Shown one piece after another: positions 4,328 to 35,988 of a stretch of 36,106 nt of DNA. The notes below the pieces were generated by a model. It did not search any database. It was not told the DNA's origin and worked only from the letters and a program-made list of their open reading frames with translations. Location of the stretch: the NCBI GenBank assembly GCA_019744945.1, contig JAIETT010000041.1:1-36106 (forward strand), written 5' to 3'. Origin of the DNA: Burkholderiales bacterium (lineage in GTDB: Bacteria > Pseudomonadota > Gammaproteobacteria > Burkholderiales > UBA11063). The translations under genes were made by a program, and so were the position numbers. Position 1 is the stretch's first letter. Each line of letters opens with the position of its first letter.

Positions 4328-4360
4328 AAGCTAACTCCTAAAATACATCATTAATTTATA

Positions 4361-4423: not shown

Positions 4424-4916
4424 AAATTTAGCCAGCCAAGTTAAAACAACTATTCCTTAAGAGTAAATACATGTTAAACCACATGCAAAAGGTTAAATTT
4501 TTTGTGAACGGCAACCGTAGAATAAATCATTATTTAATTATGGGTTGCTATTGGCTTTTCTTACCAAACACACAATTAAATAACACTATTATTGCAACTA
4601 ATTTACAATTGTGTTAGCAAAAAATTATAATAATAAATTTTTTTGATTTTTGATTAATTTAAAGCTCTAGAAGCGTTTGAATTTAATGTCCTAATGGGTA
4701 ATTATCAATATTGTATTCCAGTTGTTACTATAGCCCTTAAAATGCCAACTATAGAGACGTTTATTTATAGTTGAGACTTTTCTGAAGCCGTCAATCAATC
4801 TTAATTACTTATGTTGCGCTCGTTTTGGGATATCATTAGGGATAAATTATTATTTAGGATATGATATTTATGTGGATTTATTTTCATTTTTAATTATTAT
4901 AATATTGTGGGGGTTT
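4424..4916. other. non-coding backbone region between parA and the origin
   Basis: I see no credible gene here. There are imperfect inverted repeats (GCAACC/GGGTTGC about 4507-4546 and ACACAATT/AATTGTGT about 4570-4615) and very AT-rich tracts. It may hold promoter elements for parA or origin accessory sites. Confidence 0.4.
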
Positions 4917-4940
4917 AAGGGGGTAGCTCGCTACCCCCTT
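4917..4940. terminator. strong GC-rich hairpin
   Basis: AAGGGGGTAGC and GCTACCCCCTT form a perfect 11-bp stem around a 2-base loop, unusually GC-rich for this window. A second small hairpin (ATTCGC/GCGAAT, 4952-4965) follows within 12 bases. The first could be a bidirectional terminator that insulates the origin, or part of a structured RNA. Confidence 0.5.
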
Positions 4941-4977
4941 TGATTAAAAATATTCGCTTGCGAATTATTTTATTATT

Positions 4978-5040
4978 GAGGTGAGGGGGCTTAGGGCGGG
5001 CGCTATACGAGGTACGAGTATTAGCGGGCGAACTCACCTC
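4978..5040. other. GC-rich structured block beside the iterons
   Basis: The outer arms GAGGTGAG (4978-4985) and CTCACCTC (5033-5040) pair perfectly. They enclose a G-rich segment with the repeated word GCGGGCG/GGGCGGGCG. It stands out sharply from the AT-rich surroundings. It could be a structured RNA, a replication or termination site, or an imported fragment. No coding frame fits. Confidence 0.4.
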
Positions 5041-5155
5041 ACATAGTGAGATAAAATTTTGCTAAAAATTTTTATTTCTATGATTATTTAAAGGATTAAA
5101 TAAGGATTAGGGGTGCTATTAAAGATCATAAAATCAGTAGGATATGTTGTAAATT

Positions 5156-5630
5156 GGTATCTGATAGTAACCTATTCTGGTATCTGATAGTAACCTAATT
5201 GGTATCTGATAGTAACCTAATTGGTATCTGATAGTAACCTAATTGGTATCTGATAGTAACCTAATTGGTTAAGAGCGTGAATAATTTCATGTCAAATTAA
5301 TATAAGCTGTTGTTTTGTGCTAAAATATGTTAACTCGGTATCTGATAGTAACCTAATTTCTTGATTATTCATGATAAAAATATGATTTGGGTATTATGTT
5401 AAATTAAATGTTTATTTGTATGAAATTTGTTGATCATGTAAGAAACTGTTTTATAATTGTTTAACCGCGGGTAGTATCTGATAGTAACCTAATCGGGTAT
5501 TTATCTTTAAAGTACTGACTTCCTAGATCAAGGATTCAACTAAATTGTGCAATTATCAAATAATAAAACATAACAATGCATTACACTGTTATGTTTTATT
5601 ATTTAGGTTATCGGTATCTGATAGTAACCT
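5156..5630. repeat. oriV: iteron array, probable replication origin
   Basis: The 18-bp word GGTATCTGATAGTAACCT occurs eight times, all in the same direction. Copies start at 5156, 5179, 5201, 5223, 5245, 5337, 5473 (first base A) and 5613. Four of them (5179, 5201, 5223, 5245) lie at an exact 22-bp spacing, two helical turns. The array ends 10 bases from the stop of the initiator gene. Iterons like these bind a TrfA/RepA-type initiator, open the AT-rich DNA between them and control copy number by handcuffing. Confidence 0.9.
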
Positions 5631-5639
5631 AGTTTATAA

Positions 5640-6599
5640 TTAAAATCTTTTAAACAGTTGTTGTTGAATTGGTTTACCATATTTATATATTACTAAATAA
5701 TTATTTTCGGTAATCTCCCAGCTCCAATTAGATTTGCTATCCACTGTTTTAAAAGCTTGCTTAATTAGGTCTAAAGCTGATTTAAGCTTTTGTTTAAATC
5801 CTTTAAGTTCTGAAACGCTTCTGCAAAGTGTTTGTATATAATTTAATTTTAATGGAATAGGGTTATTATGACTTTCATAAAAACTATAAATCCACCTTGC
5901 TAATTGGTTATCACCAAGTAAATTACGGACATTTTGATTTATTAGTGTGTAATCTTTATCTGAAAAAATATTAATCATTTTTTTATTGTATCTGATAACT
6001 AGCTTACCATCTCCGTTACCATCAATAAAAACATCATCAATCAAACTACCATAATATTCTTTACCACTAACACGTAATGTGACTTTGCCGAAAGCAAGTC
6101 TCTTTGCTCGTACAATCAATCTGTCTCTGGTAATTTTTTGATTACTTAGGTTCATTAATTTACAAAGTTCATAAAGTGTTATTCTTAGCTCACTATCAAC
6201 GTTATTCTTTTTTGCTAAATAAATTAATGTATCCCACAACTCTTGATCATTTTGATCTAAGTATTCACCACTAAATTTAATATCATACTGGCTCATGCTA
6301 AAAATAGCTTCGTCTTTAACTATAGATCTTTTACCTTTTTTTACAAGACCAAATAGAGCACTTCTTAAAAATCCATTTGGTATTGCTCTTTTTTCTTCAA
6401 AAATGTCAGGCAAAAATATTTCAGTAGGCCTTTGCATAAGCTCATCCTCTGCCCGTAATACAGCTATTTCCTCTTTAATCTTTTGCATATTCTGTATAAT
6501 TAGAAACTTTTGATCTGCTACTTTTTCATCATTTAATTGTTGATTCAATTGTTGAATTAAAAGCTCTTTATCTGCTATAGACATTCTATTTTCTTCCAT
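5640..6599 (-). CDS. plasmid replication initiator, TrfA-like
   Basis: The 319-residue protein has a polar coiled-coil N-terminus (residues 5-60). The block IPNGFLRSALFGLVKKGKR and then IKFSGEYLDQNDQELWDTL follow; both are hallmarks of the TrfA family of iteron-binding initiators. The C-terminal half, with LDLIKQAFK, fits a second winged-helix domain. I chose ATG 6599, with GGTGG seven bases upstream; the preceding codon is TTG and could extend it by one residue. Its iterons lie directly 3' of the gene. A TTAGGT/ACCTAA dyad upstream (about 6620-6660) may be an autorepression site. The protein should melt the origin and recruit host helicase. Confidence 0.8.
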   Translation of the reverse strand: MEENRMSIADKELLIQQLNQQLNDEKVADQKFLIIQNMQKIKEEIAVLRAEDELMQRPTEIFLPDIFEEKRAIPNGFLRSALFGLVKKGKRSIVKDEAIFSMSQYDIKFSGEYLDQNDQELWDTLIYLAKKNNVDSELRITLYELCKLMNLSNQKITRDRLIVRAKRLAFGKVTLRVSGKEYYGSLIDDVFIDGNGDGKLVIRYNKKMINIFSDKDYTLINQNVRNLLGDNQLARWIYSFYESHNNPIPLKLNYIQTLCRSVSELKGFKQKLKSALDLIKQAFKTVDSKSNWSWEITENNYLVIYKYGKPIQQQLFKRF

Positions 6600-6665
6600 C
6601 AAAATACCACCAAACTAAAGTTAGGTCAATTTTATAATTAAGAATACAAATTTCTAACCTAATAA
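6600..6665. promoter_or_regulatory. initiator promoter with TTAGGT/ACCTAA dyad
   Basis: Upstream of the initiator start, TTAGGT and ACCTAA face each other across a very AT-rich spacer of about 30 bases. Initiators of this type often repress their own promoter at inverted half-iterons. The half-site shares CCTAA with the iteron flank (AACCTAA). The role is inferred. Confidence 0.35.
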
Positions 6666-18260: not shown

Positions 18261-18392
18261 ATGATAAATTGAGCCTTAATTATATTAGAGATTTTTATTT
18301 TTCTGGTGGTTGTATTTGGCGTTTATGCTGGTTATCATCAGAAAGGAGACAAGCCAATTAAAATTCAGGTAAGGTTAGGTTATTATGATTGA
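18261..18392 (+). pseudogene. GIYAG family copy 3, interrupted by TGA
   Basis: ATG 18261 (after GAGGACTTAATAA) is followed by ATA AAT TGA, then the frame continues through a membrane helix into VFGVYAGYHQKGDKPI and stops at 18390-18392. Only codon 4 is nonsense, so the decay is recent. Its end overlaps the start of the 303-aa gene by eight bases, which implies an original two-gene unit. Confidence 0.6.
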
Positions 18393-19296
18393 TTTATTTG
18401 ATGATGAATATCGTAGATTATTGGAACAGGTAGCGAATGATGAAAGCAGGATGAGAGAAATTATTATTCAAATTCATGAAAATAAGCGTAATGATTTAAA
18501 TCCTGCTAATACTATTATGACAGAGTTAAATGATATTCGGGATAGGCACACTAGATATGAACAATTAAGGAATGATAATTTTTCTAGGGCACTAGATTCT
18601 GTCTCAAAAATCCCGACTATAGAGGGTCTCTTGAGCACTACAGTTGAGCAGGACAGTAAATTTATTTTTAATGAGAAAAATCTTAATAATTTATTGGACC
18701 ACATAGAAAAAAAGAATATCTTTAATGGGATAGGCTATGGCTTAATAGATGCTGATACTAATAAAATATATGAATGTAAAGAAGTGATTACATTGTTATT
18801 GAGCTTATCTATCATTGTTTATACTGAACATGAATTAACTAGCTACATATTCAATTATAGATGTATGTGCAATAATAACCTGAAAAAAGTATCTTATTAT
18901 TTACTGAATGCATTTTTATGTTTTTATATTGATAGTTATACTAATACGAAAAGAAATCAATATTGTGAATTATCTACATGGTTAATGCTGGCTAATAAAG
19001 AATTAATCTCCTCTCATTCCAAAATAAAATCAACACTTTCTAAAGTTAAAAAACTGCCGCTGGAATTTAAAGATTGTGTTGCAATTATTAAAGGTGTTGA
19101 GCAAGGTAAAAAGCAAACAAATGTATTAATTAGTCTTAATAAAGGTAATCGTGATGATACAAGAGGAAAATCAATCATTTCTGCATATAAAATTGTGACG
19201 GAGGAACTAGATAAATATAAACAACATTATTTACCAGGAAACGAATATCTGTTTTTAGGGTTAAAACTACTCAGAGAATCAACTAAAATAAAATAA
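18385..19296 (+). CDS. unknown 303-aa protein
   Basis: ATG 18385 lies within the end of the third GIYAG gene, with AGGTTAGG upstream. The N-terminal 75 residues are a charged helix/coiled coil (DDEYRRLLEQVANDESRMRE). The middle has a hydrophobic stretch (CKEVITLLLSLSIIVYTEH) and a Cys-rich segment (NYRCMCNNNLKKVSYYLLNA). The C-terminus is helical (SIISAYKIVTEELDKYKQHY). No signal peptide. I recognise no domain. It stands at the border between the small-membrane-protein region and the AbiF-like unit. Confidence 0.6.
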   Translation: MIDLFDDEYRRLLEQVANDESRMREIIIQIHENKRNDLNPANTIMTELNDIRDRHTRYEQLRNDNFSRALDSVSKIPTIEGLLSTTVEQDSKFIFNEKNLNNLLDHIEKKNIFNGIGYGLIDADTNKIYECKEVITLLLSLSIIVYTEHELTSYIFNYRCMCNNNLKKVSYYLLNAFLCFYIDSYTNTKRNQYCELSTWLMLANKELISSHSKIKSTLSKVKKLPLEFKDCVAIIKGVEQGKKQTNVLISLNKGNRDDTRGKSIISAYKIVTEELDKYKQHYLPGNEYLFLGLKLLRESTKIK

Positions 19297-19406
19297 TATA
19301 TAACAATGTGTTAATGCTAATAAATACACTAAAATAATGCTTGATTTTTCTTCAGATTTGAATAATAATAACGCCATTCAAAAAACAAATGAGGAAATAA
19401 ATTATC
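19297..19406. other. AT-rich gap
   Basis: No gene is seen. The segment reads openly for a few codons (SDLNNNNAIQ-like) in one frame without a start and may be a gene tail. Confidence 0.25.
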
Positions 19407-19508
19407 ATGGAAAATTATTTTGTATTTATCTGGCTTCATGCATTAATTAAGGCTATTAAGAAAATCAATCTGTCATTAGAAATTAAATTCAAAGTGGTCG
19501 TTAAGTAG
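19407..19508 (+). CDS. possible 33-aa peptide
   Basis: ATG 19407 with GAGGA 11 bases upstream encodes MENYFVFIWLHALIKAIKKI and a basic end before TAG 19506-19508. It is amphipathic rather than a clean membrane helix. It could be real or chance. Confidence 0.3.
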   Translation: MENYFVFIWLHALIKAIKKINLSLEIKFKVVVK

Positions 19509-19657
19509 TAGTATACTTACATTTGCTATTATCGCGGATTTTTGCATATTTCAATATTTCAAAAGCAATGCTTACACGATTACACGATAATATAAATACA
19601 TGACTATAAATTTATATGATATAATGTTCGCATATATAAATTTTAAGGCATTTCATA
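19509..19657. promoter_or_regulatory. promoter region of the HTH gene with symmetric AT repeats
   Basis: It contains ATATGATATAATG (likely -10), the palindrome TATAAATTTATA (about 19605-19616), a second similar word CATATATAAATTTT, and the direct repeat ACACGATTACACGATA. The palindromes just before the HTH gene are candidate autoregulatory sites. Confidence 0.4.
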
Positions 19658-20641
19658 ATGAATAAAACAGTTACAGAACTGGCAATACATTTTGGCTTAG
19701 CAAGATCAACCATTGTTAAATACACTAAAGAGTGCCCAACGTTTCCTCAGCCATCAGTGAAAACAAAAGTACCTATGTATGATGTAAATGAAGTAAACCA
19801 ATTCATTCAAAACAGAAATGCTACTAATAAAGAGCGCAGAGCAAAACAGGGTATATTAATTAATGCAACTCGCTGGATGCTAGACGAAAAAATAAATACT
19901 ATAATGGACAACATTAATAAAAAAACTATAAATAACAACTTGTACTATGAATTTGAAGATCTTTGCAAAAAAGTTGGATTTACACCATCAATATTATCAA
20001 AAACAATTACATTTAATGGGCTTTTGGTCTATGAAGACCAAGAACGAATGCAATGTGTTCCTCAGAGAACAGATATTACATTGTACTTTAAAAATGAAGA
20101 TATTGCTAAATTAGTTGTTGAAGCATCTTTTAAAACTAATGGGTTACATGTTGAGTACCTCGTTAATGGACTAATGAGAGAAGCTGAAGGCATTAGAACA
20201 AATGCACAGTTAGGCTTTAATTCGGTAATTAACTTAACCAACGGAGATCTATCAAACAACGAATCCTTGGTTGATGAAATAACATATACAAAAATAGAAA
20301 CTAATACCTTAGAAAAATTAGCTTTAGCACTAATTAAACGAAAAAACAATATTGAAGAACAGGAAGTAATAATGTCAGAAATAGCACTTTTAAAAGCAAA
20401 ATCTTTAATCGATGAATCTAGGTCTCAATATACCACTACAGGCAAACGTCCTGTCATATTCATTGAAACTGGTGTTAAATATAATGATAAAACTGAAATA
20501 CCGCCGAGATTTCAACAAAAAGTGCCAAACTCAGGCAGTAAATATATGATTGATTTTTCTGGATACGAATACCAATACATAGACCTATTGGATCCAATTG
20601 AATTAGCAAAAATCATGAGTAAAAACCCACAAAATGGCTAA
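19658..20641 (+). CDS. DNA-binding protein with N-terminal HTH, 327 aa
   Basis: The N-terminus reads VTELAIHFGLARSTIVKYTK followed by PMYDVNEVNQFIQN, the form of an excisionase/AlpA-like winged helix-turn-helix (helix-turn-helix, short wing, then a helix). The remaining 250 residues contain several helices (LEKLALALIKRKNNIEEQ) and a beta-rich end (GSKYMIDFSGYEYQYIDLLD) that I do not recognise. AAGG lies ten bases before ATG 19658. The gene stands alone, followed by a clear terminator at 20662. It may be a regulator of the neighbouring defence or plasmid genes. Confidence 0.65.
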   Translation: MNKTVTELAIHFGLARSTIVKYTKECPTFPQPSVKTKVPMYDVNEVNQFIQNRNATNKERRAKQGILINATRWMLDEKINTIMDNINKKTINNNLYYEFEDLCKKVGFTPSILSKTITFNGLLVYEDQERMQCVPQRTDITLYFKNEDIAKLVVEASFKTNGLHVEYLVNGLMREAEGIRTNAQLGFNSVINLTNGDLSNNESLVDEITYTKIETNTLEKLALALIKRKNNIEEQEVIMSEIALLKAKSLIDESRSQYTTTGKRPVIFIETGVKYNDKTEIPPRFQQKVPNSGSKYMIDFSGYEYQYIDLLDPIELAKIMSKNPQNG

Positions 20642-20661
20642 TAAATCACGTGGAAATGAGA

Positions 20662-20685
20662 AGAGCACTTCTTGCGAAGTGCTCT
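20662..20685 (+). terminator. Rho-independent terminator of the HTH gene
   Basis: AGAGCACTTC and GAAGTGCTCT form a perfect 10-bp stem around TTGC, followed by a moderately T-rich stretch (TATATTCTTT). It lies 20 bases after the stop at 20641 and separates it from the AbiF-like unit. Confidence 0.85.
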
Positions 20686-20689
20686 ATAT

Positions 20690-20790
20690 TCTTTGCCTCT
20701 TACGCTACACTGGATCCGCTAGTTTATGTTTCCATAGTCAACACGCAAGAGATGTTGACATTCAACTAGAGTCACGACCCTGTTTTCTAA
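20690..20790 (+). ncRNA. probable structured antitoxin RNA upstream of the AbiF-like gene
   Basis: Between the terminator and the AbiF-like gene lies about 100 bases of GC-richer sequence that can fold tightly. CTAGTT (20719-20724) pairs with AACTAG (20764-20769). Inside, GTCAACA (20737-20743) pairs with TGTTGAC (20753-20759), leaving loop CGCAAGAGA. The loop (CGCAAGAG) can pair with CTCTTACG (20697-20704) apart from one mismatch, forming a pseudoknot. A conserved abiF RNA motif upstream of such genes is known from comparative genomics, and related HEPN genes have RNA antitoxins. The exact ends and direction are inferred. Confidence 0.6.
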
Positions 20791-20816
20791 CTAGTATTAT
20801 ATCATAAAGTACACAT

Positions 20817-21443
20817 ATGGAAAAATATTTTACACAACAAAGACTCAGCTCTTATACAGACCTAACAGATTATATTGAAAACATTAAAATATGTCAACGA
20901 TACTATCCAATTTTAAATATTTTTGAAATTGTGCTACGAAACAGGATCAACGATTTTTTTATTAAAACGTTTGGTACAGCATGGTTAAAAAAAATATTAA
21001 AAAATCAATTTAGTTTCGAGCCAGGTACTGAAATTGAAAACAAAGTTAAATCAGCTGCAATAATTTTAACTCGAGAAAACAAATCTATCACACATGATGC
21101 TTTGCTTAGCAATTTAACATTGGGGTTTTGGGTTGCTTTACTGTCAAATGAAAAAGATCAATTTTTTCACCGCCTAAATCGACATGATAAACGCATGTCT
21201 TCGAAGCATAATAAAACCTTTATGCGAGAAGTCTTTAAATTAAACGCAACCGATTCAGGAAGCGACACAAAAATTGAAGAAGTAAGAAAGGAATTAGATT
21301 CAATTAGAAAATTTAGAAATCGAGTTTTTCACTATGAAAAAGTTTCACATGTAGAACTAGGTATAAAACCAATCACAGAAAAATACATTATCATATTTCA
21401 AAATGAGACAGAGGATATCAACATATTTTTACAAAATTTTTGA
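20817..21443 (+). CDS. AbiF/AbiD-like (Abi_2 family) HEPN protein
   Basis: The 208-residue protein has the family pattern: QQRLSSYTDLTDYIENIKIC, then FEIVLRNRINDFF (about residues 36-48), LTLGFWVALLSN in the middle, and a C-terminal FRNRVFHYE. The last holds the HEPN RNase motif R-x4-H (R167, N168, H172). This is the layout of Abi_2-type abortive infection proteins, which cleave RNA and stop growth on phage infection. No good ribosome site precedes ATG 20817, so translation may be weak or controlled. It is shorter than the usual 250-320 residues of the family. The structured segment just upstream is the probable antitoxin RNA. Catalytic residues look intact. Confidence 0.75.
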   Translation: MEKYFTQQRLSSYTDLTDYIENIKICQRYYPILNIFEIVLRNRINDFFIKTFGTAWLKKILKNQFSFEPGTEIENKVKSAAIILTRENKSITHDALLSNLTLGFWVALLSNEKDQFFHRLNRHDKRMSSKHNKTFMREVFKLNATDSGSDTKIEEVRKELDSIRKFRNRVFHYEKVSHVELGIKPITEKYIIIFQNETEDINIFLQNF

Positions 21444-23516: not shown

Positions 23517-25628
23517 ATGAAAATTACAGTTTTTAGTGTCTTAGGTTTAGATTGTCCTGCTGAAGAAAAATTGATTCGAAATAAATTTAAAAATATCAGT
23601 GGAATTACTAATTTAGAGTTTAATTTTATACGTCAAGAGTTAATGGTAACGCATGATTTGAGCGATGTACAAATCATCTTATCGGCAATTAAAGATATTG
23701 GCATGGAAGCAAGTGTAAAAAACTCAGGAGCTTCAAAACAGATTAAAAAAAAGCCAACATTTGCATATAAAAGTTGGGGTTTAGTTGCGATTGCAGGATT
23801 AATGGCTTTAGGTGCAGAAGTTTATGCTTATTTCTCCCAGAATGAAAAATCTATTTTAGTTATTTTTCTATCTATTGGTGCCATCATTTTAGTTGGAAAA
23901 CCAACCTTTAAGAAAGGATGGTTAGCTCTACGTTCTTTTACCCTCAATATTAATTTCTTAATGATGATAGCAATTACAGGTGCTGCGATTATTGGAGAAT
24001 GGCCAGAGGCGGCAATGGTAACAGTTCTTTTTGCCCTTGCTGAATTAATTGAACGTTATTCGTTAGATAAGGCCCGCCATGCAATTGAGGGCTTAATGGA
24101 AATAGCACCAAATGAGGCATTAGTTAAAAATGGAAATGAGTGGAAATTAACTCCTGTTATAGAAATTACTCAGGGGGATATTATTAAAGTTAAACCAGGC
24201 GAGAGAATTCCAATTGATGGGATTCTTATGTCAGGGAATAGTTCAATAAATCAAGCTCCAATTACTGGTGAGTCAATACCTGTAGAAAAAAATATAGATG
24301 ATATCGTTTATGCTGGAACTATTAATGAGCATGGTTCTTTTGAGTTCAAAGTTACGACATCAGTTAATAATACTATGCTCGCTAAAATTATTCATTCCGT
24401 TGAAGAAGCTCAAGCAGTAAAAGCCCCGACACAAAGATTTGTAGATCAGTTTTCAAAATATTATACTCCATTAATGGTAATTACCGCGATATGTATTGCT
24501 ATAATTCCTTCTTTATTTTTTGGGCAACCTTTATCAATTTGGCTGCCTAAAGCTCTAGTTTTGTTGGTTATAGCCTGCCCATGTGCTTTAGTTATCTCAA
24601 CTCCAGTAACGGTTGTCAGTGGTTTGGCTGCTGGCGCAAGACAAGGGCTCCTTATTAAAGGCAGCACTTACTTAGAGAATGGTCATAAATTAAGAGTAAT
24701 TGCATTAGATAAGACTGGCACTATTACTCAAGGCAAACCACTAGTCACTAATATAATATCTTTAAATGGAGTCAAGGAAGAGACCATATTAAAAATCGCG
24801 GCTAGTTTAGATATACTCTCAGAACATCCTGTAGCACATGCAATTGTTACTCATTATCAACAAAAATATTCAGGTGATATATTGGAAATTAAGCAATTTT
24901 CAGCAATACCTGGTCATGGGGTTGTAGGATATATTGATAATAAGATTTACTATGTCGGTAATCACCGATTGGCTGAAAAAAATAAAGTTTGTAGTAAGGA
25001 AATTGAGCTGCAGCTAGAGCATTTGGAACAAGAAGGTAAAACTACAGTAATCATTTCAACAGATCAACAGGTAATTGGAATTATTGCGGTTGCTGATGCA
25101 ATAAAAAACACAAGTGCCCAGGCAATAAAGGAATTGCACCAGCTTGGTATTAAAACTGTCATGATAACCGGGGATAATTCTTTAACAGCGAATTCTATTG
25201 CAAATCTAGTTGGCATTGATGAAGTCTATGCCAATATGTTACCAGAAAATAAATTGGCAACTATTGATAAATTGATTGATCAATATCAATTTGTAGGCAT
25301 GGTTGGTGATGGAATTAATGATGCACCAGCCTTAGCTAAAGCAAACATTGGTTTTGCAATGGGTAGCGAAGGTACAGATATAGCATTAGAAACAGCAGAT
25401 GTTGCATTAATGGAAAATAGTTTAATTAAGCTCCCAACTTTTATAAAAATAAGTCGTAAAACATCAAATATATTAATTCAAAATATTTCTTTCGCTATTA
25501 TTGTTAAAATAATATTTTTTGCTCTAGCCATCTTTGGAAAAGCTACTTTATGGATGGCCGTATTTGCGGATATGGGCGCAAGTTTAGTAGTAGTATTTAA
25601 TGGTTTAAGATTACTCAAATCTAGATAG
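23517..25628 (+). CDS. P1B-type heavy-metal-transporting ATPase (Zn/Cd/Pb type)
   Basis: The 703-residue pump has an N-terminal HMA domain with the motif GLDCPAEE (Cys13). TGES (250-253) is in the actuator domain. The CPC ion-binding motif ACPCALVIS has its cysteines at 354 and 356. DKTGT (398-402) holds the phosphorylated Asp398; HP (437-438) is in the nucleotide domain, followed by TGDN and GDGINDAPALA (597 onward). The CPC motif and HMA type place it in the CadA/ZntA group, which exports Zn2+, Cd2+ or Pb2+ from the cytoplasm. The single CPAE motif replaces the usual CxxC. It follows the lipoprotein gene by 34 bases in the metal operon. All catalytic residues are intact. Confidence 0.93.
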   Translation: MKITVFSVLGLDCPAEEKLIRNKFKNISGITNLEFNFIRQELMVTHDLSDVQIILSAIKDIGMEASVKNSGASKQIKKKPTFAYKSWGLVAIAGLMALGAEVYAYFSQNEKSILVIFLSIGAIILVGKPTFKKGWLALRSFTLNINFLMMIAITGAAIIGEWPEAAMVTVLFALAELIERYSLDKARHAIEGLMEIAPNEALVKNGNEWKLTPVIEITQGDIIKVKPGERIPIDGILMSGNSSINQAPITGESIPVEKNIDDIVYAGTINEHGSFEFKVTTSVNNTMLAKIIHSVEEAQAVKAPTQRFVDQFSKYYTPLMVITAICIAIIPSLFFGQPLSIWLPKALVLLVIACPCALVISTPVTVVSGLAAGARQGLLIKGSTYLENGHKLRVIALDKTGTITQGKPLVTNIISLNGVKEETILKIAASLDILSEHPVAHAIVTHYQQKYSGDILEIKQFSAIPGHGVVGYIDNKIYYVGNHRLAEKNKVCSKEIELQLEHLEQEGKTTVIISTDQQVIGIIAVADAIKNTSAQAIKELHQLGIKTVMITGDNSLTANSIANLVGIDEVYANMLPENKLATIDKLIDQYQFVGMVGDGINDAPALAKANIGFAMGSEGTDIALETADVALMENSLIKLPTFIKISRKTSNILIQNISFAIIVKIIFFALAIFGKATLWMAVFADMGASLVVVFNGLRLLKSR

Positions 25629-25657
25629 TTGTAATATGATTTTGTTCGAAAGAAAAT

Positions 25658-26998
25658 ATGCTTAAAGCCATATATACCCTTGTAACAGCACTATTTTTGG
25701 TCTCATGTGCGACCTATTCACCAAAGCCATTAACTGATAGTGAAGTAAATAAGGCTTTAGGCATGCCTATTGAATCTATTAGTCAAAACCAACTCAAACC
25801 AGTACCAATTGATTTTAGCAAGCCACTTACAGTTCAGCAAATTGCGCTTATCACTGTTATAACTAACCCAGATTTGAAAGCTTTACGAGCTAAAAATGAT
25901 ATAGCAAGTGCTCAAGTGTTTGATGCAGGGTTATTGCCAGACCCACAAATTATGCCAGCTTACGAAATTCCTACAACTACGGGAAATGGCGTAACTCCCG
26001 CATACTCTTTATGGATAAATTGGGATATTGGAAGTTTAATGACAAGATCATTAAAAGAGTCCGCTGCTAAGGAACTTCAAAAACAGGTAAGCTATAGTAC
26101 TGCATGGCAAGAATGGATGATTGCCAATCAAGCAGAACTATTGGCAACAAGAGTATATTATTTACAAGAACAAGCTCGATTAATTCAACAATCCAATATT
26201 ATTTCAAAAAATTACTTGAATGAATTACAGGCTAATTTTGAGCAACATAATATTAAAATCGATTATTTTAATCAGGAAAAAGCTACCTATCTAGATTTAG
26301 TAAATCAACAACAAACAATAGAGCGATTATTAGCTAAAACGAAACTAGAATTAACCCAAGTCATGGGACTTCCTCCAACTGCTAGTATACAGCTTCAAAT
26401 TAATCCAAATATTACCATCCCAAAATTAAATGAAAGCGAATTATTTGCTTATGCTAGACAAAATAGGCTAGATGTTTTGGCACTAAAAGCAGGTTATAAC
26501 AATCAAGAAATTCAAGTGCGCCAGGCTGTACTAGGTCAATACCCTCATTTTACTACTAGCATTTACCCAGGGCAAGATAATACAAGTAATGGATTCTTCG
26601 GAACTAATGTAGCTTTTGATATTCCTGTATTTAATCGTAATCGTGGAGCAATCGCTATTGCAACCGCTACGCGCGAGAATCTATATCTGGAATATATAGC
26701 AAGGTTACATAATATTCAATATGCTATTTATAGTGTGTCAAAAGAACTGACTTGGGCTACCGAGCAAGAAAAGACACTTAATAGTGAAATGCCACAACTT
26801 AGAAACACGGATAGTAGATTAAAGCAAGAGTTGTTAAATTCAAATATAAGCATGTCTAACTATACTAGTTTCCATAATACATTATTAACTAAAGAATTAA
26901 AACTCTTGTCTGTGCAACAAGATATAGCTGAACAGGGTGTAGCCATGCAAATGGCTTTAGGAAAATATTTAGATGGGCGCAATAATGAAATTAAATAA
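25658..26998 (+). CDS. TolC-family outer membrane factor (CzcC-like lipoprotein)
   Basis: A lipoprotein signal (TLVTALFLVSCATYSPKPLT, lipidated Cys17) starts a 446-residue protein with two OEP repeats. The first contains LTVQQIALITVITNPDLKAL, and the second ends with long helices (EQGVAMQMALGKYL). Such proteins form the outer-membrane channel of tripartite RND pumps. It is the first of three overlapping pump genes (channel, adaptor, permease) and overlaps the next gene by 14 bases. The weak ribosome site (GAAAG) fits coupling to the ATPase transcript. Confidence 0.85.
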   Translation: MLKAIYTLVTALFLVSCATYSPKPLTDSEVNKALGMPIESISQNQLKPVPIDFSKPLTVQQIALITVITNPDLKALRAKNDIASAQVFDAGLLPDPQIMPAYEIPTTTGNGVTPAYSLWINWDIGSLMTRSLKESAAKELQKQVSYSTAWQEWMIANQAELLATRVYYLQEQARLIQQSNIISKNYLNELQANFEQHNIKIDYFNQEKATYLDLVNQQQTIERLLAKTKLELTQVMGLPPTASIQLQINPNITIPKLNESELFAYARQNRLDVLALKAGYNNQEIQVRQAVLGQYPHFTTSIYPGQDNTSNGFFGTNVAFDIPVFNRNRGAIAIATATRENLYLEYIARLHNIQYAIYSVSKELTWATEQEKTLNSEMPQLRNTDSRLKQELLNSNISMSNYTSFHNTLLTKELKLLSVQQDIAEQGVAMQMALGKYLDGRNNEIK

Positions 26999-28046
26999 GA
27001 CCAAGATCTATTTAACTATAACCGGAATAGTTTGTTTAGTTATTGCCCTGCTAATTTACTTTAATAAAGCAGATGATTCAGAACAAGAAATCAAACCAAC
27101 TGCTTTAGTTAATATAGCAAAAGTAAAGAAACAAGAAATGGTAAGAACCTTATACGTTAATGGCACTGTAAACTATGCACCAGATAAGGTTCAACAAATT
27201 AGTTTTAATACAGATGTAGTAGTTGATCAGGTATTCATTCAACCAGGGCAGAAAGTTAAAAATGGACAAATTCTTTTAAAACTTAGCCCCAGCCCTAGTA
27301 CTAGAGCTATTGTTGACAATGCTAAAATTTCGGTAGATTTTTCTCAAAAAGAATATAACCGATTGAATATTTTACGTAGTAAATATCTTGCTACCAACGC
27401 TGAAGTACAGAATGCTCAACAACAGTTATTAAAGTCTCAAACAGATTTACAGAATTTACTTGTTACTATCAATAGAATTAACCATACTTACTCTGCGAAT
27501 ATGAATGGCGTAGTAATTAATGTTAATGCTCAGGCTGGCCAAATTGTTCCTGCCGGAACCTTATTATTAAGTATCGGAAATAAATTACAAGCACAATTTA
27601 ATGCGCCTGCTACTTATAAAGATAACATTAAATTAAATCAAAAAATTCAAGTTACTAGCTTAAATAATACTAAGTACACTCAGTTAAGCCTAATCTCAAA
27701 TATATCAGGGCAAATTGATCCAATTAGCGCCACCATAGGACTTAATGCACCATTGGATATATCTACTGGCTTTATATCAGGAGATAGTATTACCGGTAAA
27801 ATTTATTTAGATCAAGTGAGTCAACAACTGGCTATTCCCAAATCAGCATTGTTGTATAAAGGGGATATCCCGTATATCTTTATTAATAAGAAAGGAATTG
27901 CCGAGCAAAAATGGGTGACTATCTTATATCAAAACGAAAGTACTGTTTATCTTAGTAGTGGTGTTTCTGAAAATGAAGAGGTTATAACATCAGGGAATTA
28001 CGAACTAGACCCAGGAACTAAATTACGTACGGAGTTGAATAAATGA
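26985..28046 (+). CDS. periplasmic adaptor (membrane fusion protein) of the RND pump
   Basis: I chose ATG 26985 (MKLNKTKIYLTITGIVCLVI); the frame opens at 26973. An inner-membrane anchor (about residues 8-25) is followed by a lipoyl-like domain (VFIQPGQKVKNGQILLKL), a coiled-coil hairpin (EYNRLNILRSKYLATNAEVQ) and the second lipoyl half (NVNAQAGQIVPAGTLLL). A beta-barrel and membrane-proximal domain (ISTGFISGDSITGKIY, LAIPKSALLYKGDIPYIF) complete it. It links the RND permease to the TolC-type channel. It overlaps both neighbours (14 and 4 bases). It lacks obvious His-rich metal-binding tails. Confidence 0.85.
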   Translation: MKLNKTKIYLTITGIVCLVIALLIYFNKADDSEQEIKPTALVNIAKVKKQEMVRTLYVNGTVNYAPDKVQQISFNTDVVVDQVFIQPGQKVKNGQILLKLSPSPSTRAIVDNAKISVDFSQKEYNRLNILRSKYLATNAEVQNAQQQLLKSQTDLQNLLVTINRINHTYSANMNGVVINVNAQAGQIVPAGTLLLSIGNKLQAQFNAPATYKDNIKLNQKIQVTSLNNTKYTQLSLISNISGQIDPISATIGLNAPLDISTGFISGDSITGKIYLDQVSQQLAIPKSALLYKGDIPYIFINKKGIAEQKWVTILYQNESTVYLSSGVSENEEVITSGNYELDPGTKLRTELNK

Positions 28047-31000
28047 TTTCATTATGGCTTAAAAAACATCGTACTTCAATATTATTTTTATTTTTTGTTT
28101 TAACTGCGGCAGGAATTTTTACAACGATAAAATTACCTGTTTCTCTCTTTCCTAGCATTGAATTTCCTCGGATAATTGTAAATGTGGATACAGGTGATAT
28201 GCCAATTGATAAAATGATTGTTGAAGTAACAAAGCCATTAGAATATGCTTTACGTAAAGTTCCCGGAGCTAGTGGTATCCGTTCAATAAGCAATAACGGC
28301 ACCACAGAGTTATCAGTCAATTTTCAGTGGGGGCATGATATGCCCCTTGCACTACTTCAAACTCAAGCTGCAATTAGTCAAATAGCTCCTACTTTACCGG
28401 AAGGTGTCTCTATGAATGCTTTCCGTGTTGATCTAAGTGGATATCCAATGTTTGGGCTATCTCTCACCTCTGTACTTAAAAGTATGGTCGAAATAAAAGA
28501 TTTTGCAAACTTTGAGTTATTGCCAATACTAAATTCTGTCCAGGGAGTTGCCAGTGTTGAAGTCTTGGGCGGGCAAAATGCGGAATTTCAAATACAATTT
28601 AACCCTCTGAAATTAAAGCAAAACAGCTTAACTATAAATGATATTAATCAGGCTCTTGCTACAAATAACACTATAGTTTCTGCGGGGAGGATAGAAGACC
28701 GTTATCGCCTATACTTAGTGATGTCCGGAAGTCGAAAGAAAAATTTAGAAGATTTAAAACAGGTAATAGTGCGGAGTGATGCTAGTGGAATACTGAGATT
28801 ATCTGATATCGCTTCCATAAAAATTGGTACTACACCGGCATGGATACGGGTAACATCGAATAATACAAACGCGGTGCTAATTAATATCCGTCAACAAATT
28901 GGTGCAAACACTGTTGAGATAGCAAATTTAATCAAAGATAGATTAAAAGACTTCGGCCAAACAGCTTCAAAAAGCATAACATTACAGACTTATTATGATC
29001 AATCAAAATTAATCAAGGATGCTGCCGGCAGCGTAAAAGAGGCTATTCTAATTGGTGCATTTTTAGCAGCTTTAGTTGTATTGTTTTTTTTAAGAAACTG
29101 GCGATTAACTATTATAGTAATTCTGATTATTCCCTGTGTAATTTCAACAACCGTTTTAATCCTTTATGCATTTGATATGAGCTTTAATATCATGACTTTA
29201 GGTGGGATAGCTGCAGCTGTTGGCTTAGTAATTGATGATGCCGTGGTAATGATAGAACATATAGCTCGAAGATTGGCCGAGGAACAATCTAATCCCAATT
29301 ACCATAACGAAGGTATAATTAACGCCGGTATGGAAATGCTTAAACCACTAATTGGCTCATCTATGGCCACTATTATTATCTTTGTCCCTCTATCTTTCCT
29401 TAGCGGAATTACTGGTAGTCTCTTTAAAGCTTTGGCACTTACCATGACATCTGCGCTGCTCATATCCTTTTTCTTCACATTTTTAGTTGTTCCCTTGCTT
29501 AGTGAAATGCTATTGATTAAGGTTAAATTCCGACATCATGAAGACGGAAAATTACTGCATAAACTACAAGGAAAATACGTATCAGTTATGCAAAATGTGT
29601 TATCTACTCCTAAATTGTTAATAATCCCGATTTTAGGATTCCTTTTAATTGGCTACGCGGCTTATGATAAAGTTGATTCAGGGTTTATGCCATATATGGA
29701 TGAAGGGACAATTGCTATTGACTATACAACAAAACCAGGTACATCCTTAACTGAAACAGATTGGATTCTCAAGCAAGCCGAGTCAATTATAACGTCTATT
29801 CCAGAAGTAAATGGTTACTCTCGCAGAACCGGATTACTTTTTGGTGGGAGTATTACTCCACCCAATAGAGGCGATTTTTTTATTAGCTTAAAGGATCACC
29901 CCAGAAGAAATATTGATGAAATCATAGATGAGTTACGTAATAAAATTGCCCAAACAATTCCGGGTCTACAATTTAGTATAGCGCAATTAATTGGTGATAT
30001 GATTGGAGATTTAACCTCAGTTCCTCAACCGATTGAAATAAAGATTTTTGGAGGTACTCAAACTTCTTTGATGCCAATTGCGACTATTGTTGCTGAAAAA
30101 ATCAGCAAGGTACGTGGAGTCGTTGAAATTAAGGATGGAATTGTATATTCAGGTGATAATATTGAAATTGATGTTGATCCAACAAAAGCTGCAATATTTG
30201 GTTTAGATCCAGATAAAGTAAATCAGCAAGTTCAAAGTCAAATAGCTGGGAAGTATGTTAGTAATGTATTAAGTAAAGATAAGGTGATTCCTATTCGAAT
30301 CATGGCTGAAGATAATTTACACAGTACTGTAGAGCAACTAAATAATATTATGCTTAGTGGTTCTGCGGGTAAATATACAATATTGGAACAAATCGCCAAT
30401 ATTAAAGCTCAAACAAACCAAACTCAACAAATAAGAGAAAACTTAAAACCAATGATAGCTGTTACAGCAAGGATCAGTGGCCGAGGACTTGGCTCGACAA
30501 TGGAGGAAATTAAGGGAATAATGAAAAAAACTAATCTTCCTAGGGGGGTATATGTTCAGTATGGCGGGATATATCAAGAGCAGCAAAAATCTTTTAAGGA
30601 TTTAATCCTTGTATTTGTTAGCGCAGAGTTCTTGGTTATATTATTATTGTTGATAATTTATGAGAATATTAGTATCGTATTGAGTATTCTAATAATGACA
30701 TTGCTTACACTACCTGGAATGTTTATAGGGTTATTCTTAACTAAAACTGAACTAAATATTTCATCAATGATGGGCATGACGATGGTAATTGGTATGGTAA
30801 CAGAAATTGCTATTTTTTACTTTTCGGAATTGAATTTATTGCCAAATCAAGATCAAAAACACATAATTCACGTGGGGGTTATGCGCATGCGCCCAATTTT
30901 AATGACCTCAATTATAGCTGTTTTAGCACTTCTTCCACTAGCCGTTGGATTTGGAGTTGGTTCCGAAATGCAGCAGCCACTAGCTATTACAATTATTTCG

Positions 31001-31087
31001 GGTTTAATTGTTGCTGTTCCATTAATTTTGGTTGTAATGCCAAGTATTTACCTAGTTTTACAAAAGAAAACTCATAGAAAAGTTTAG
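28043..31087 (+). CDS. RND-family efflux permease (CzcA/AcrB-like)
   Basis: The 1014-residue protein has twelve expected membrane spans in two halves, each with a large periplasmic loop. The start overlaps the adaptor stop (ATGA). In TM4 it reads TLGGIAAAVGLVIDDAVVMIEH, with the adjacent proton-relay aspartates D398-D399 as in AcrB-type pumps. Classical metal pumps (CzcA/CusA) instead have a DFGxxxDG motif there. So although its neighbours suggest metals, this permease belongs to a less specific RND group and its substrate is open. The C-half repeats the pattern (MTMVIGMVTEIAIFYFSEL). Confidence 0.85.
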   Translation: MISLWLKKHRTSILFLFFVLTAAGIFTTIKLPVSLFPSIEFPRIIVNVDTGDMPIDKMIVEVTKPLEYALRKVPGASGIRSISNNGTTELSVNFQWGHDMPLALLQTQAAISQIAPTLPEGVSMNAFRVDLSGYPMFGLSLTSVLKSMVEIKDFANFELLPILNSVQGVASVEVLGGQNAEFQIQFNPLKLKQNSLTINDINQALATNNTIVSAGRIEDRYRLYLVMSGSRKKNLEDLKQVIVRSDASGILRLSDIASIKIGTTPAWIRVTSNNTNAVLINIRQQIGANTVEIANLIKDRLKDFGQTASKSITLQTYYDQSKLIKDAAGSVKEAILIGAFLAALVVLFFLRNWRLTIIVILIIPCVISTTVLILYAFDMSFNIMTLGGIAAAVGLVIDDAVVMIEHIARRLAEEQSNPNYHNEGIINAGMEMLKPLIGSSMATIIIFVPLSFLSGITGSLFKALALTMTSALLISFFFTFLVVPLLSEMLLIKVKFRHHEDGKLLHKLQGKYVSVMQNVLSTPKLLIIPILGFLLIGYAAYDKVDSGFMPYMDEGTIAIDYTTKPGTSLTETDWILKQAESIITSIPEVNGYSRRTGLLFGGSITPPNRGDFFISLKDHPRRNIDEIIDELRNKIAQTIPGLQFSIAQLIGDMIGDLTSVPQPIEIKIFGGTQTSLMPIATIVAEKISKVRGVVEIKDGIVYSGDNIEIDVDPTKAAIFGLDPDKVNQQVQSQIAGKYVSNVLSKDKVIPIRIMAEDNLHSTVEQLNNIMLSGSAGKYTILEQIANIKAQTNQTQQIRENLKPMIAVTARISGRGLGSTMEEIKGIMKKTNLPRGVYVQYGGIYQEQQKSFKDLILVFVSAEFLVILLLLIIYENISIVLSILIMTLLTLPGMFIGLFLTKTELNISSMMGMTMVIGMVTEIAIFYFSELNLLPNQDQKHIIHVGVMRMRPILMTSIIAVLALLPLAVGFGVGSEMQQPLAITIISGLIVAVPLILVVMPSIYLVLQKKTHRKV

Positions 31088-31137
31088 CGAGTTGAGTTTA
31101 TTATAACATGTACTATAGTTAGTTAGAGGTCGTTATT

Positions 31138-31842
31138 ATGTTAAATCAAATTTTACTATTTATCTTAACACCTTCGATTTGCATGATTTTAGGTGGGATT
31201 ACTGCAATTTATTTTACTCCATCAGAGAAAATAACTTCAATGACCCAACATTTTGCAGCAGGAGTAGTTTTTGCAGCGGTAGCTAAAGAGTTAGTAGTAA
31301 AGCTGGGTGGTGCTCATCAAAGCCAATTGTCCCTGATTGGTGGCTTCTTGCTGGGCTTGGCCTGTATGCTTTTTGCAAAATTTATAAGTAATAAACTTGA
31401 AGAAAAGAATAATAAACTAGCAATAGGCTTTATTGTTTCGATTTTTATAGATGTATTTATAGATGGGCTATTAATTGGGATTGCGTTTCTAACTGGCGAA
31501 AAAGGTGGAATATTAATTACTATCGCACTTTCTATAGAAATAATCTTTTTAGGAATCGCAACTAGCGCTACATTAAAAGATAAAAACCTAAATACGCTCC
31601 TTAAAATTTTGATAATTTTAGGACTATCTCTAACGATACCTTTTGCAGCAGTTATAGGATTAACTTTATTTAAAAATGTTAACCCTAATTTAATGGGTGG
31701 TATTTTAGCTTTTGGTACTGCTGCTCTACTTTATTTGGTGACAGAAGAGTTATTAGTAGAAGCTCATTTAACAAAAGAAAAATTCTGGATGCCAATGTTT
31801 TTCTTTCTAGGGTTTTTATTGATATTAGTTCTGGAAAATTAA
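31138..31842 (+). CDS. ZIP-family divalent metal transporter
   Basis: The 234-residue membrane protein has about eight hydrophobic helices and the ZIP signatures: HFAAGVVFAAVAKELV in an early helix, FIDVFIDGLLIG in the middle and EIIFLGIATSA, with acidic residues replacing some of the usual His metal ligands, and LLYLVTEELLVEAH near the end. AGAGG precedes the start. ZIP proteins usually import Zn2+, so its place behind exporters is notable; it might export, balance or recruit metal. It is the last plus-strand cargo gene, facing the minus-strand YnfA gene. Confidence 0.8.
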   Translation: MLNQILLFILTPSICMILGGITAIYFTPSEKITSMTQHFAAGVVFAAVAKELVVKLGGAHQSQLSLIGGFLLGLACMLFAKFISNKLEEKNNKLAIGFIVSIFIDVFIDGLLIGIAFLTGEKGGILITIALSIEIIFLGIATSATLKDKNLNTLLKILIILGLSLTIPFAAVIGLTLFKNVNPNLMGGILAFGTAALLYLVTEELLVEAHLTKEKFWMPMFFFLGFLLILVLEN

Positions 31843-32295: not shown

Positions 32296-32883
32296 TTATG
32301 ATTTGTATGCGCTTATTTGTACGCCGCGATGTCTTAGATATTTATAAAGAGTGTTTTTTGCAATACCTAATTGGCCTGCAATTTGATTAACACTTAATTT
32401 ACCTTCTTTATATAATGTTTCGGCAGCGCAAGCGGTGGCTTCAGCATGCTGTGATAATCCTTTAGGTTTCCCGCCTTTACGCCCTCTGGCTCGGGCAGAT
32501 TCAAGCCCAGCTTTTGTACGCTCACTAATCAAATCGCGTTCAAATTCAGCCAGACTTGCAAAGATATTAAAAGTTAAACGACCTTGCGGGGTAGTAGTAT
32601 CAATATTATCGTGCAAGCTTTTAAGCCCAATCTCTTGTTTAATAAGTTGGCCAACTATATCAACAAGGTTTTTAAGTGATCTACCCAGTCTATCTAATTT
32701 CCAAATAATTATTACATCACCCGGCCTCACCGGATTTAACATTTCCTGTAAAACAGGTCTTTCAGATTTTGCCCCACTAATAACTTCTTTGTATATCCTG
32801 GCACATTTTTCTTTATTCAGTGCATCAAGCTGTAAATCAAGGTTTTGATCTTTAGTGGATACTCTAGCATAACCGATTATCAT
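32296..32883 (-). CDS. tnpR: transposon resolvase (serine recombinase)
   Basis: The 195-residue protein has the catalytic domain [20 protein letters not shown] (nucleophile Ser9), the VIIIWKLDRLGRSLKNLV block, the E-helix FNIFASLAEFERDLISERT and a Gly/Arg linker. It ends with a C-terminal helix-turn-helix (LSVNQIAGQLGIAKNTLYKY). It is complete. It resolves the cointegrate formed during replicative transposition at the res site upstream (32884-33041). It is divergent from tnpA, the standard Tn3-subgroup arrangement. The broken copy at 651-1173 is a relative. Confidence 0.93.
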   Translation of the reverse strand: MIIGYARVSTKDQNLDLQLDALNKEKCARIYKEVISGAKSERPVLQEMLNPVRPGDVIIIWKLDRLGRSLKNLVDIVGQLIKQEIGLKSLHDNIDTTTPQGRLTFNIFASLAEFERDLISERTKAGLESARARGRKGGKPKGLSQHAEATACAAETLYKEGKLSVNQIAGQLGIAKNTLYKYLRHRGVQISAYKS

Positions 32884-33041
32884 ATTAATCCTTAAAATTG
32901 TATACGAAAGTCAACGTATAAAGAATATTTATACTTTGATAATGCTAACCAGTATTATGACCTATTTTTGAGTTATAATGTTGCATATTTCCAAGCTTAC
33001 AAAAAGTATAACAAAACCTTCGTTATTATGGACTATAAATT
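32884..33041. promoter_or_regulatory. res site and divergent promoters of the transposon
   Basis: The 158 bp between resolvase and transposase contain dyads of the resolvase-site kind: GTATAAA/TTTATAC with a 5-base spacer (32916-32934) and a neighbouring TTGTATAC...ACGTATAA. The position fits res subsites I to III. Both genes start at its borders, so resolvase binding should also control transcription. Confidence 0.65.
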
Positions 33042-35988
33042 ATGCCACGCCGTAGTGTATTAACCGAATCAGAAAAACAAGCGTTACTTATAATTCCAAC
33101 TGAATTACCTGAATTAAGCAAGTATTACTTGCTCTCTGAAGCGGACATTTCGCTAATCGGCAAAAAGCGAGGGAAACATAATAAACTTGGTTTTGCACTT
33201 TTATTATGTTGTATGCGGTACCCAGGTTCATCTTTTGACGCTGAAACCGATATTCCATTACTAACACTAAAGTTTATTGCTAACCAACTAAAAATCAAAG
33301 ATTTTTCAGTTTGGAGAAATTACTTTAAGCGTGATTCAACTCGTAGAGAACATATTTTAGAATTACAAAGTTTATTTGGGTTTAAAACGTTTACTAATTC
33401 GCACTACGAGAATTACATTAAAAAATTAACGCCATGCAAAACAAAATGATAAGGGTATTATTGTAGCGAATCAGTTAATCACATTGCTACATATGAATAA
33501 AATAATAGTTCCCAGCATATCAGTAATTGAACGTTTGTGTGCCGAAGCCATAACGAATGGTAATCAAGAGTTATATAGTGATTTAGTTGCACATCTCTCA
33601 GACATACATATATTTGAGTTAGACGAGTTATTAAAGCTAAAAGCTGAAACAAGAATTAGTAATTTGCACTGGTTACTGCAACCAGCAACAATACCAAAGC
33701 CAAAGCATATTTTACTGCACATTGAACGATTAAAAGTGATTAACAAGCTTAATTTACCGAGTAATATTAGTAAAAACGTGCACCAAAATCGTTTGATCCG
33801 GATAGCTAAAGAAGGTAAAAACATGCCAGCGGGGGAGATTCAGAAGTTTGAACCAAGCCGCAGATATGCTACGCTTGTAGCAGTGGTCATAGAAACAAGA
33901 GCTTCTATTATTGATGAAATAATTGAACTTAACGACAAAATACTTGGAAATATCTTTAATAAGGCTAAGCATAGTCATAATAATGAATTTCAAAACTCAA
34001 GTAAAACCATAAATGAAAAACTTAACCTCTATGTTAGGATTGGCCAAATACTAATTACCGCCAAACAAAATAATGAAGACCCATTTCAAGCCATCGAAGC
34101 AGTCATTCCTTGGGATGACTTTACTAAGTCAGTCAATGATACCAAAGAGCTTGCCAAGCCAGATAGCTTTGATTCGCTTTATAAAATCACTGCATACTAT
34201 TCATGGATTAAACGGTATATGATTGAATTCTTGGAAGCCCTGGAATTTAAACCGTCTAATAGTACAACTGAGCTTTTCAAAGCCTTGGGAATAGTAAAAC
34301 AGATGCATCATGGTAAATTGCGTAAGGTTCCGGATAAAGCCTCGACAATATTTATCAAAAAGCAATGGCATAGCTTAGTTTTCAAAGACAATGGTGCTAT
34401 TGATAAACAGTTTTATGAGTTTGCGGTACTTACCGAATTAAAAAATTCGCTCCGTTCTGGGGACATTTGGGTTGTCGGCTCCCGTAAACACAAAGACTTT
34501 GATGAATATTTATTGGACAAAGAAATTTTCAAACAAAAACGTTTAGAATCACCATTGCCTACAGTTGGCTCATGCAGTTTCAAAGAGTTTATTACTGGCA
34601 GAACCGATATTTTAAAAGCTAACCTTAAAGAAGTTCATGAGTTAGCATTAAAAGATGAATTACATGATGCAACCATTAACGATGATGGCTTGAAAATTAC
34701 CCCACTGACAAATTCAGTCCCAGAAGAAGCATATGCATTTAATCAAAAGGTATATGCCTTACTACCTAAAATAAAAATCACTAATTTGCTTCAGGAGGTT
34801 GATACTTGGACGAATTATACACAACATTTTATCCATTTAAAAAATGAAAAGCCAGCCGGAAACAATCAATTATTATTAACTGTAGTGCTCTCTGATGCAA
34901 TAAATTTGGGGCTGACTAAAATGGCTGAAGCTTGTCCTGGTACCACTTACTCAAAACTATCTTCAATGCAGGCCTGGCATATTAGGGAAGATACCTATAC
35001 AAGAGCGCAGGCAGTTCTGACTAACACCCAGCATCAACAGGAAATTACAAAATATTGGGGAGATGGTAATAGCTCATCTTCTGATGGCCAACGATTTAAA
35101 GCAGGCGGCACAAATCAGCATTCAGCGAACAAAAATCCAAAATACGGCAGAGAACCAGGTGTAACTTACTATGGGCATATTTCAGACTTGTATGCACCAT
35201 TTCACATGAACCTGATAACCACTAATCTCCGTGATTCAACTTATGTCTTGGACGGTTTGCTGCACCATGAGGCAGACCTTAATATCTATGAACACTATAC
35301 AGATACTGCTGGATTTACCGACCATGTGTTCGCATTAATGTATCTGTTAGGCTTCAAGTTTGCACCAAGAATCCGCGACTTAAACGATAAACGGATATAT
35401 TTGCCTAATAAATCTGCCAGTTATCCGGCATTATCCAGTATGGTTGGTGGTTACCTTAATTTAAAATTAATTGAGCAGAATTGGGATGAAATCATGAGAT
35501 TGGCTATGTCAATAAAGCATGGCACGGTTACATCATCATTAATACTACGGAAGCTTGGCAGTTACCCACGACAAAATAAACTAGCTCTGGCACTTCGAGA
35601 GCTTGGTAAGCTGGAGCGTAGCATTTTTATGCTTGAATGGTCAAAAGATCCGCAATTACGGCGCAGGGTACAAGCAGGACTAAATAAAGGTGAAGCAAGA
35701 CATGCTTTAACCAGAGCGGTACATTTTAACCGGCTAGGCGAAATTAGAGATAGAACATTTGAAAATCAATTGCACCGGGCAAGCGGTTTAAATTTAGTGG
35801 TTGGAGCCATTATATTGTGGAATACGGTTTATATTCAAAAAGCGATTGATTATTTACGAAAAACGGACAAAGACTTTAATGAAGGATTAATCAAGCACTT
35901 ATCGCCCTTAGGTTGGGAGCATATCAATTTAACCGGAGATTATATTTGGAGTAATGCACTAAAGAATAGTCAGCTAAGAATTGGATAA
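33042..35988 (+). pseudogene. tnpA: Tn3-family transposase, split by one frameshift
   Basis: The first frame (33042-33449, 135 aa, MPRRSVLTESEKQALLIIPT) and the second (open from before 33484 to 35988, 834 aa) together match a full Tn3-type transposase of about 980 residues. Just before the break the reading is YENYIKKLTP; the other frame continues as AKQNDKGIIVANQLITLLHM. The break near 33435 is a 2-bp deletion or a 1-bp insertion. The DDE catalytic region is intact in the second part: WGDGNSSSSDGQRF, ..HYTDTAGFTDHVFALMYLLG, and RTFENQLHRASGLNLV near the end. A sequencing error or a recoding event cannot be excluded. Confidence 0.85.

Follow-up and report, generated by a model that had tools for sequence, protein, structure and literature searches.

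The window, i.e., the whole stretch of 36,106 nucleotides that was analysed, looks like a plasmid from the genes it carries: ParA, a TrfA-like replication protein, a resolvase and a Tn3 transposase are encoded at 3671–6602 and 32296–35988. The MAG from which it comes is 87.6% complete with 5.4% contamination, and the host of the plasmid is therefore uncertain. A metal-resistance cassette, made up of a P-type ATPase, an outer-membrane efflux protein, an RND pump and a ZIP transporter, occupies 23517–31842, and two unnamed plus-strand genes (303 and 327 aa) lie at 18385–20641, the second of which weakly matches, in its N-terminal part, phage terminase small subunits and DNA-binding proteins. Just downstream of these two genes is the locus described here, the elements of which are the following (three helices, S0, S1 and S2, are distinguished in the RNA):

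20655–20789, minus strand: proposed divergent structured RNA of approximately 105–135 nt, with a predicted start at about 20789 (from folding and homologous RNAs)
20662–20685, both strands: terminator-like hairpin, usable both ways, between the upstream plus-strand gene and the divergent RNA
20697–20704, minus strand: 3' strand of the S2 pseudoknot helix, RNA CGUAAGAG (GCAGGG in relatives)
20719–20724, minus strand: 3' arm of stem S0, RNA AACUAG (S0 in 4/7 sequences)
20737–20743, minus strand: 3' arm of stem S1, RNA UGUUGAC (plus strand GTCAACA), from the seven-sequence helix tally
20744–20751, minus strand: S1 loop, which is also the 5' strand of S2, RNA CUCUUGCG (same tally)
20753–20759, minus strand: 5' arm of stem S1, RNA GUCAACA (plus strand TGTTGAC; same tally)
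20764–20769, minus strand: 5' arm of stem S0, RNA CUAGUU
20796–20804, minus strand: extended -10 box TGATATAAT of the divergent RNA promoter (TGnTANAAT, kept in 7/7 clade RNAs of alignment A3)
20823–20818, minus strand: weak -35 element TTTCCA, paired with this -10 box (10/12 matches)
20817–21443, plus strand: HEPN-type open reading frame of 208 aa, PD-T4-5/distant AbiF-AbiD subfamily, predicted RNase toxin
20869–20897, minus strand: perfect TTGACA-17-TATAAT promoter inside the toxin frame and pointing out of it (12/12 consensus)
21315–21332, plus strand: codons of the HEPN R-x4-H motif, R167-N-R-V-F-H172 (from sequence and alignment)

The reading frame and its R167-x4-H172 motif, both reported in the preliminary description of this DNA, are real: the R-N-x3-H catalytic motif of Abi_2/AbiF is present as R167-N-R-V-F-H172, and R167, N168, R169, F171 and H172 are invariant among the 20 homologues of alignment A2. 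The assignment to Abi_2 made in the same description did not hold, since a Pfam search of the protein gave no match whatever, Abi_2 (PF07751) included, at E values up to 10, and Pfam, PHROGs and NCBIfam offered nothing useful to name it by. What matches instead is the PADLOC model PD-T4-5 (E 1.1e-13, 49.1 bits, residues 19–175 against model positions 38–203 of 309), a model approximately 100 aa longer than the protein. Relatives are borderline, with scores close to the 25.6-bit Abi_2 cut-off (22.4 for L012 and 19.6 for L083, under it, and 30.2 for L091, over it). The AlphaFold2 model (pLDDT 84) has as its top match in the PDB the PbAbiF-ncRNA complex 8VZ6, with a probability of 0.96 but an E value of 0.29 and a TM score of 0.50; among the PDB matches listed for the model, no other has a probability above 0.1. 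Searches of the PDB by sequence, profile included, gave no match, and a profile comparison with one Abi_2 protein returned too weak a signal for use. The protein had also been considered short for its family; 208 aa is a normal length for this subfamily, whose close relatives usually measure approximately 190–240 aa, though the Abi_2 proteins accompanied by abiF RNA are longer (open frames of 291–351 aa). We class it as a PD-T4-5-type, AbiF/D-like HEPN protein outside Pfam Abi_2, and it is probably a defence toxin that cuts RNA. No strong plus-strand promoter was found for its gene, and no evident ribosome site precedes the frame, as had been remarked before.

The protein shares about 30% identity with its nearest kin; relatives of 30–39% identity are present in the same genus, and further homologues occur in Campylobacterota, Bacteroidota, Cyanobacteria, Melainabacteria and Actinomycetota, on plasmids and in a few viral contigs; a scan of viral contigs with the single 208-aa protein as query gave no match, nor did an E. 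coli genome search with the Pantoea locus. In the tree, the protein sits on a long branch and groups with relatives from Burkholderiales and Neisseriaceae (98/91), with a Campylobacterota set as sister. A short structured element lies upstream of the genes of most relatives, not of all, and Melainabacteria-type relatives have no clear upstream element. Two same-genus copies of the toxin gene (L006, L008) are disrupted, through stop codons or a broken frame, and retain the neighbouring divergent RNA.

The structure upstream of the gene was first read on the plus strand, as a 7-bp stem GTCAACA/TGTTGAC (20737–20743/20753–20759) with a GCAAGAG loop complementary to CTCTTACG at 20697–20704. These pairings stand, and it is the strand that was almost certainly wrong: on the plus strand the loop pairing CTCTTACG/CGCAAGAG reaches 7/8 with one A.C mismatch, and on the minus strand CUCUUGCG/CGUAAGAG reaches 8/8 with one G.U. 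Either helix would arise in shuffled versions of the window sequence with a chance of about 0.05, so that the window on its own is only suggestive, and the two helices become convincing only through the homologues. The alignment of homologous loci shows the compensatory changes at the stems that the preliminary description had asked for, read on the divergent strand. In clade alignment A3, composed of the window RNA and six related upstream sequences (seven in total), an H-type pseudoknot geometry is kept in the six relatives, with compensatory changes. The helix lists behind this and the following tallies were compiled manually, using the alignments, ahead of counting. On the divergent strand, S1 gives 44/44 Watson–Crick pairs, with changes on both sides; S2 gives 48 Watson–Crick pairs, 6 G.U, 0 A.C and 2 other; and S0, the outer stem found in four of the seven, gives 29 Watson–Crick pairs, 3 G.U and 1 A.C. 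The 5' strand of S2 is CCCUGC-like in the relatives and its 3' strand GCAGGG-like, and several positions of the window RNA differ from theirs on both sides with pairing kept. Almost no spacing separates S2 from the second S1 arm, which suggests the classical H-type geometry.

The strand of the RNA can be read from its non-Watson–Crick pairs. When the stem pairs of 35 loci are counted strand-neutrally and read on the divergent strand, there are 26 G.U, 1 A.C and 5 other pairs, and the same 26 G.U pairs become A.C mismatches when read on the gene strand. In L015 and L007 the S1 strings are bulged and, without the bulge, entirely Watson–Crick. On the divergent strand, a T-rich 3' tail (at least 6 T in 10) follows the outer helix in 23/34 loci, against 0/34 on the gene strand, the count having been made with a fixed strand orientation. 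The strip between RNA and gene contains extended -10 or sigma70 promoters (TGnTANAAT or TTGACA-17-TATAAT) directed away from the gene, with a combined p of 3e-17 that is overstated because the clades and loci are related, and in Bacteroidota loci it contains a TAnnTTTG box, likewise directed away from the gene. Folding energies point the same way in the window region (-39.8 kcal/mol on the minus strand, z -3.1, 0/200 shuffles; -31.6 kcal/mol and z -1.8 on the plus strand). Over the best-folding windows of 63 loci, the same comparison favours the minus strand in 33 and the plus strand in 21, an ambiguous result because unrelated hairpins are mixed in, and the assignment of the strand therefore relies on the G.U counts, the tails and the promoters. 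At the far end of the RNA, the hairpin at 20662–20685 was detected on both strands (shuffles mean 0.1) and would therefore also terminate the upstream plus-strand gene; its U-run on the minus strand, TCTCATTTCC, is weak.

Hence the stem and the loop pairing almost certainly belong, on comparative sequence evidence, to an RNA of the strand opposite to the gene, and computation establishes the gene, its HEPN motif, the conserved structured RNA with its strand, and the promoter and terminator pattern. The earlier idea of a HEPN toxin with an upstream pseudoknotted controlling RNA is thus supported in its core by conservation, covariation and the fold match to AbiF-ncRNA, and corrected in that the RNA is divergent and does not lie in the toxin leader. 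Nor is the RNA an abiF motif (RF03085): Rfam searches of both strands, at gathering and relaxed thresholds, returned nothing for the window or for the upstream RNAs of relatives. Since the RNA is transcribed from the opposite strand and is not RF03085, the control of translation through a 5' leader that had been proposed is unlikely, and control by a protein-binding RNA with overlapping promoters fits better.

The comparison with known systems begins with AbiF/Abi_2 and its abiF RNA (C. difficile AbiF-RCd22; PbAbiF-ncRNA, 8VZ6), which resemble the present locus in the HEPN R-x4-H RNase-type protein, the small structured RNA just upstream and, tentatively, the predicted fold. The C. difficile pair is an experimentally shown toxin–RNA antitoxin system, in which the protein is toxic, the catalytic R/H are required and the RNA, supplied in trans, neutralises it by binding; a single transcript carries abiF together with RCd22, which lies in its leader (PMC12373285). 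A control search for RF03085 covered 274 Gammaproteobacterial genomes, and in the five top loci with an intact-HEPN Abi_2 frame the RNA lies on the strand of the gene, as in C. difficile, so that the divergent arrangement sets this branch apart from the described abiF systems, together with the H-type pseudoknot and a protein of 208 aa outside Pfam Abi_2. In the open literature no report was found that pairs AbiF/D-type toxins with an RNA transcribed divergently; an earlier description is possible, the key Cell paper on AbiF/Cas13 lying outside this scope. PD-T4-5, an E. coli plasmid defence gene (Vassallo et al., 2022), is homologous in protein, plasmid-borne and HEPN-type; in the available part of the source it is called a distant relative of AbiF/D, is placed with the TA-like systems whose defence is of the Abi type, and is presented as a single gene with no RNA partner mentioned (PMC9519451), whereas the window locus has a predicted adjoining RNA. 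Type III systems (ToxIN, CptIN, TenpIN) share a toxin that is, here probably, neutralised by a pseudoknotted RNA, and a structured, pseudoknotted small RNA was found beside the toxin gene in the seven clade sequences, on the divergent strand. The toxin fold of these systems is unrelated to the HEPN protein. ToxI RNA is built from tandem repeats and is found upstream, on the strand of the toxin; unlike it, the present RNA is on the opposite strand, and no tandem repeats occur at 20500–20900. Finally, Cas13 belongs to a HEPN RNase lineage for which descent from AbiD/F has been proposed (PMC12165695), with AbiF as the suggested ancestor (PMC12165695; PMC12737573); it has two HEPN domains and a CRISPR array, in contrast to the one HEPN motif in 208 aa found here, and a search of the window against CRISPR repeat families gave no match, with no repeats or spacers noticed.

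The favoured reading, with a probability of roughly two in three, is a plasmid-borne toxin–RNA antitoxin module of type III logic whose RNA is divergently transcribed. We infer toxicity, RNase activity, binding of RNA to protein, transcription and the trigger; that an RNase toxin is restrained by the RNA is argued by analogy with AbiF-RCd22. Weighing against this reading are the low identity of the protein to its nearest kin and its long branch, the modest E value and TM score of the fold match, the failure of the RNAs to align as one structure across clades, the lack of a strong toxin promoter and the weak minus-strand U-run of the terminator. The 208-aa HEPN protein would act as an RNase toxin, probably serving in abortive infection as an effector and/or as a plasmid addiction factor; addiction and abortive phage defence would each be a plausible role for a plasmid-borne module. 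A strong divergent promoter adjoining the toxin gene, and possibly also one within it, would make an RNA of approximately 105–135 nt that folds into the H-type pseudoknot and terminates at the hairpin at 20662–20685. This abundant RNA would bind the HEPN dimer and block its active site, and its promoter, overlapping the weak promoter of the toxin, would compete with it; divergent promoters of this kind imply mutual exclusion of RNA and toxin transcription. Loss of the RNA, either by phage shut-off of transcription or by plasmid loss, would free the toxin.

It is less likely, with a chance of about one in five, that the divergent RNA governs expression of the toxin and not the protein itself, either by promoter occlusion or through a longer form, started at 20897–20869, that is antisense to the toxin start in a type I-like manner. 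The perfect -35/-10 promoter within the frame agrees with this, as it could yield an extra antisense RNA that covers the start codon and roughly the first 15 codons of the toxin, and so does the position of the divergent promoters, in most loci within approximately 20–60 nt of the start codon; against it, the in-frame promoter is not conserved in relatives, whose predicted RNA begins upstream of the frame and hardly overlaps it, and the conserved structure would be needless for antisense or interference alone. Considerably less probable is a plus-strand leader RNA, or an abiF-type RNA co-transcribed with the toxin, acting in cis. Proven AbiF systems do carry their RNA in the leader (PMC12373285), and Coriobacteria relatives (L063, L066, L067, L068, L071, L072) have a conserved gene-strand hairpin directly upstream of the gene, followed by a Shine–Dalgarno sequence, which would suit such a leader; this hairpin is a different arrangement within the same protein family, and the reading is contradicted by the ratios of G.U to A.C (26:1) and of tails (23:0), the promoter positions, the weaker plus-strand folding and the missing RF03085 match. 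Equally improbable is that the RNA serves the HEPN RNase as a conserved sensor or Cas13-like pre-guide and not as a plain inhibitor, for although the proposed ancestry of Cas13 and the strongly conserved yet unpaired CCUCUC and UGAUGA segments would fit it, those segments are equally compatible with protein contacts, tandem repeats are absent and no variable spacer-like segment was noticed.

The type III-like module may not be confined to the lineage of the window. Covariance model R1, built from the RNA core of Bacteroidota and Cyanobacteria, was searched over 473 kb from 65 loci on both strands, and its 24 matches up to E = 5 are, every one, on the divergent strand directly beside the gene, a further line of evidence for the strand of the RNA. 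Nine of the 24 come from loci without any sequence in the training set (L091, L031, L081, L082, L083, L053, L016, L060, L050), with E values at or below 0.01 only for L091 and L031; the match in L016, at E = 1, is in the right position and is only a hint of common descent across clades. Neither a common structural alignment nor a merged model accommodates the RNAs of different clades, and common descent of all of them is therefore not established. We lean slightly towards a class of RNA-antitoxin modules that spans several phyla, has no Rfam family and joins small PD-T4-5/AbiD-like HEPN toxins to an RNA transcribed divergently from them; the core of this RNA (outer stem, CCUCUC, hairpin, UGAUGA) would occur in Bacteroidota, Pseudomonadota, Cyanobacteria and Chloroflexi, as well as weakly in Campylobacterota, and would have been rebuilt as an H-type pseudoknot in the lineage of the window.

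The interest of a second branch lies in the proposal that AbiF-type HEPN toxins with RNA antitoxins are ancestors of Cas13. If this branch uses a different, opposite-strand RNA, RNA control would be more ancient and more flexible than the abiF-leader model implies, and the RNA partner of Cas13-ancestral HEPN toxins would have switched strand and structure in evolution. PD-T4-5-type defence genes, presented singly in what is available of the source, would likewise gain a likely missing partner, which matters for cloning and annotation. The compact plasmid loci of approximately 900 bp from Enterobacterales, Aeromonas and Pantoea (L081–L083) make these proposals directly testable.

Two further loci may be mentioned. 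In L107 (genome G436, about 1495–1550), a core RNA, matched by the core model and followed by a terminator, lies next to a HigA-like gene and an ATG-like remnant, with no HEPN gene; it is therefore counted as an orphan and is possibly an orphan antitoxin RNA. In L088, a Vibrio phage record (Tectiliviricetes), a PD-T4-5-type gene adjoins an integrase-like gene.
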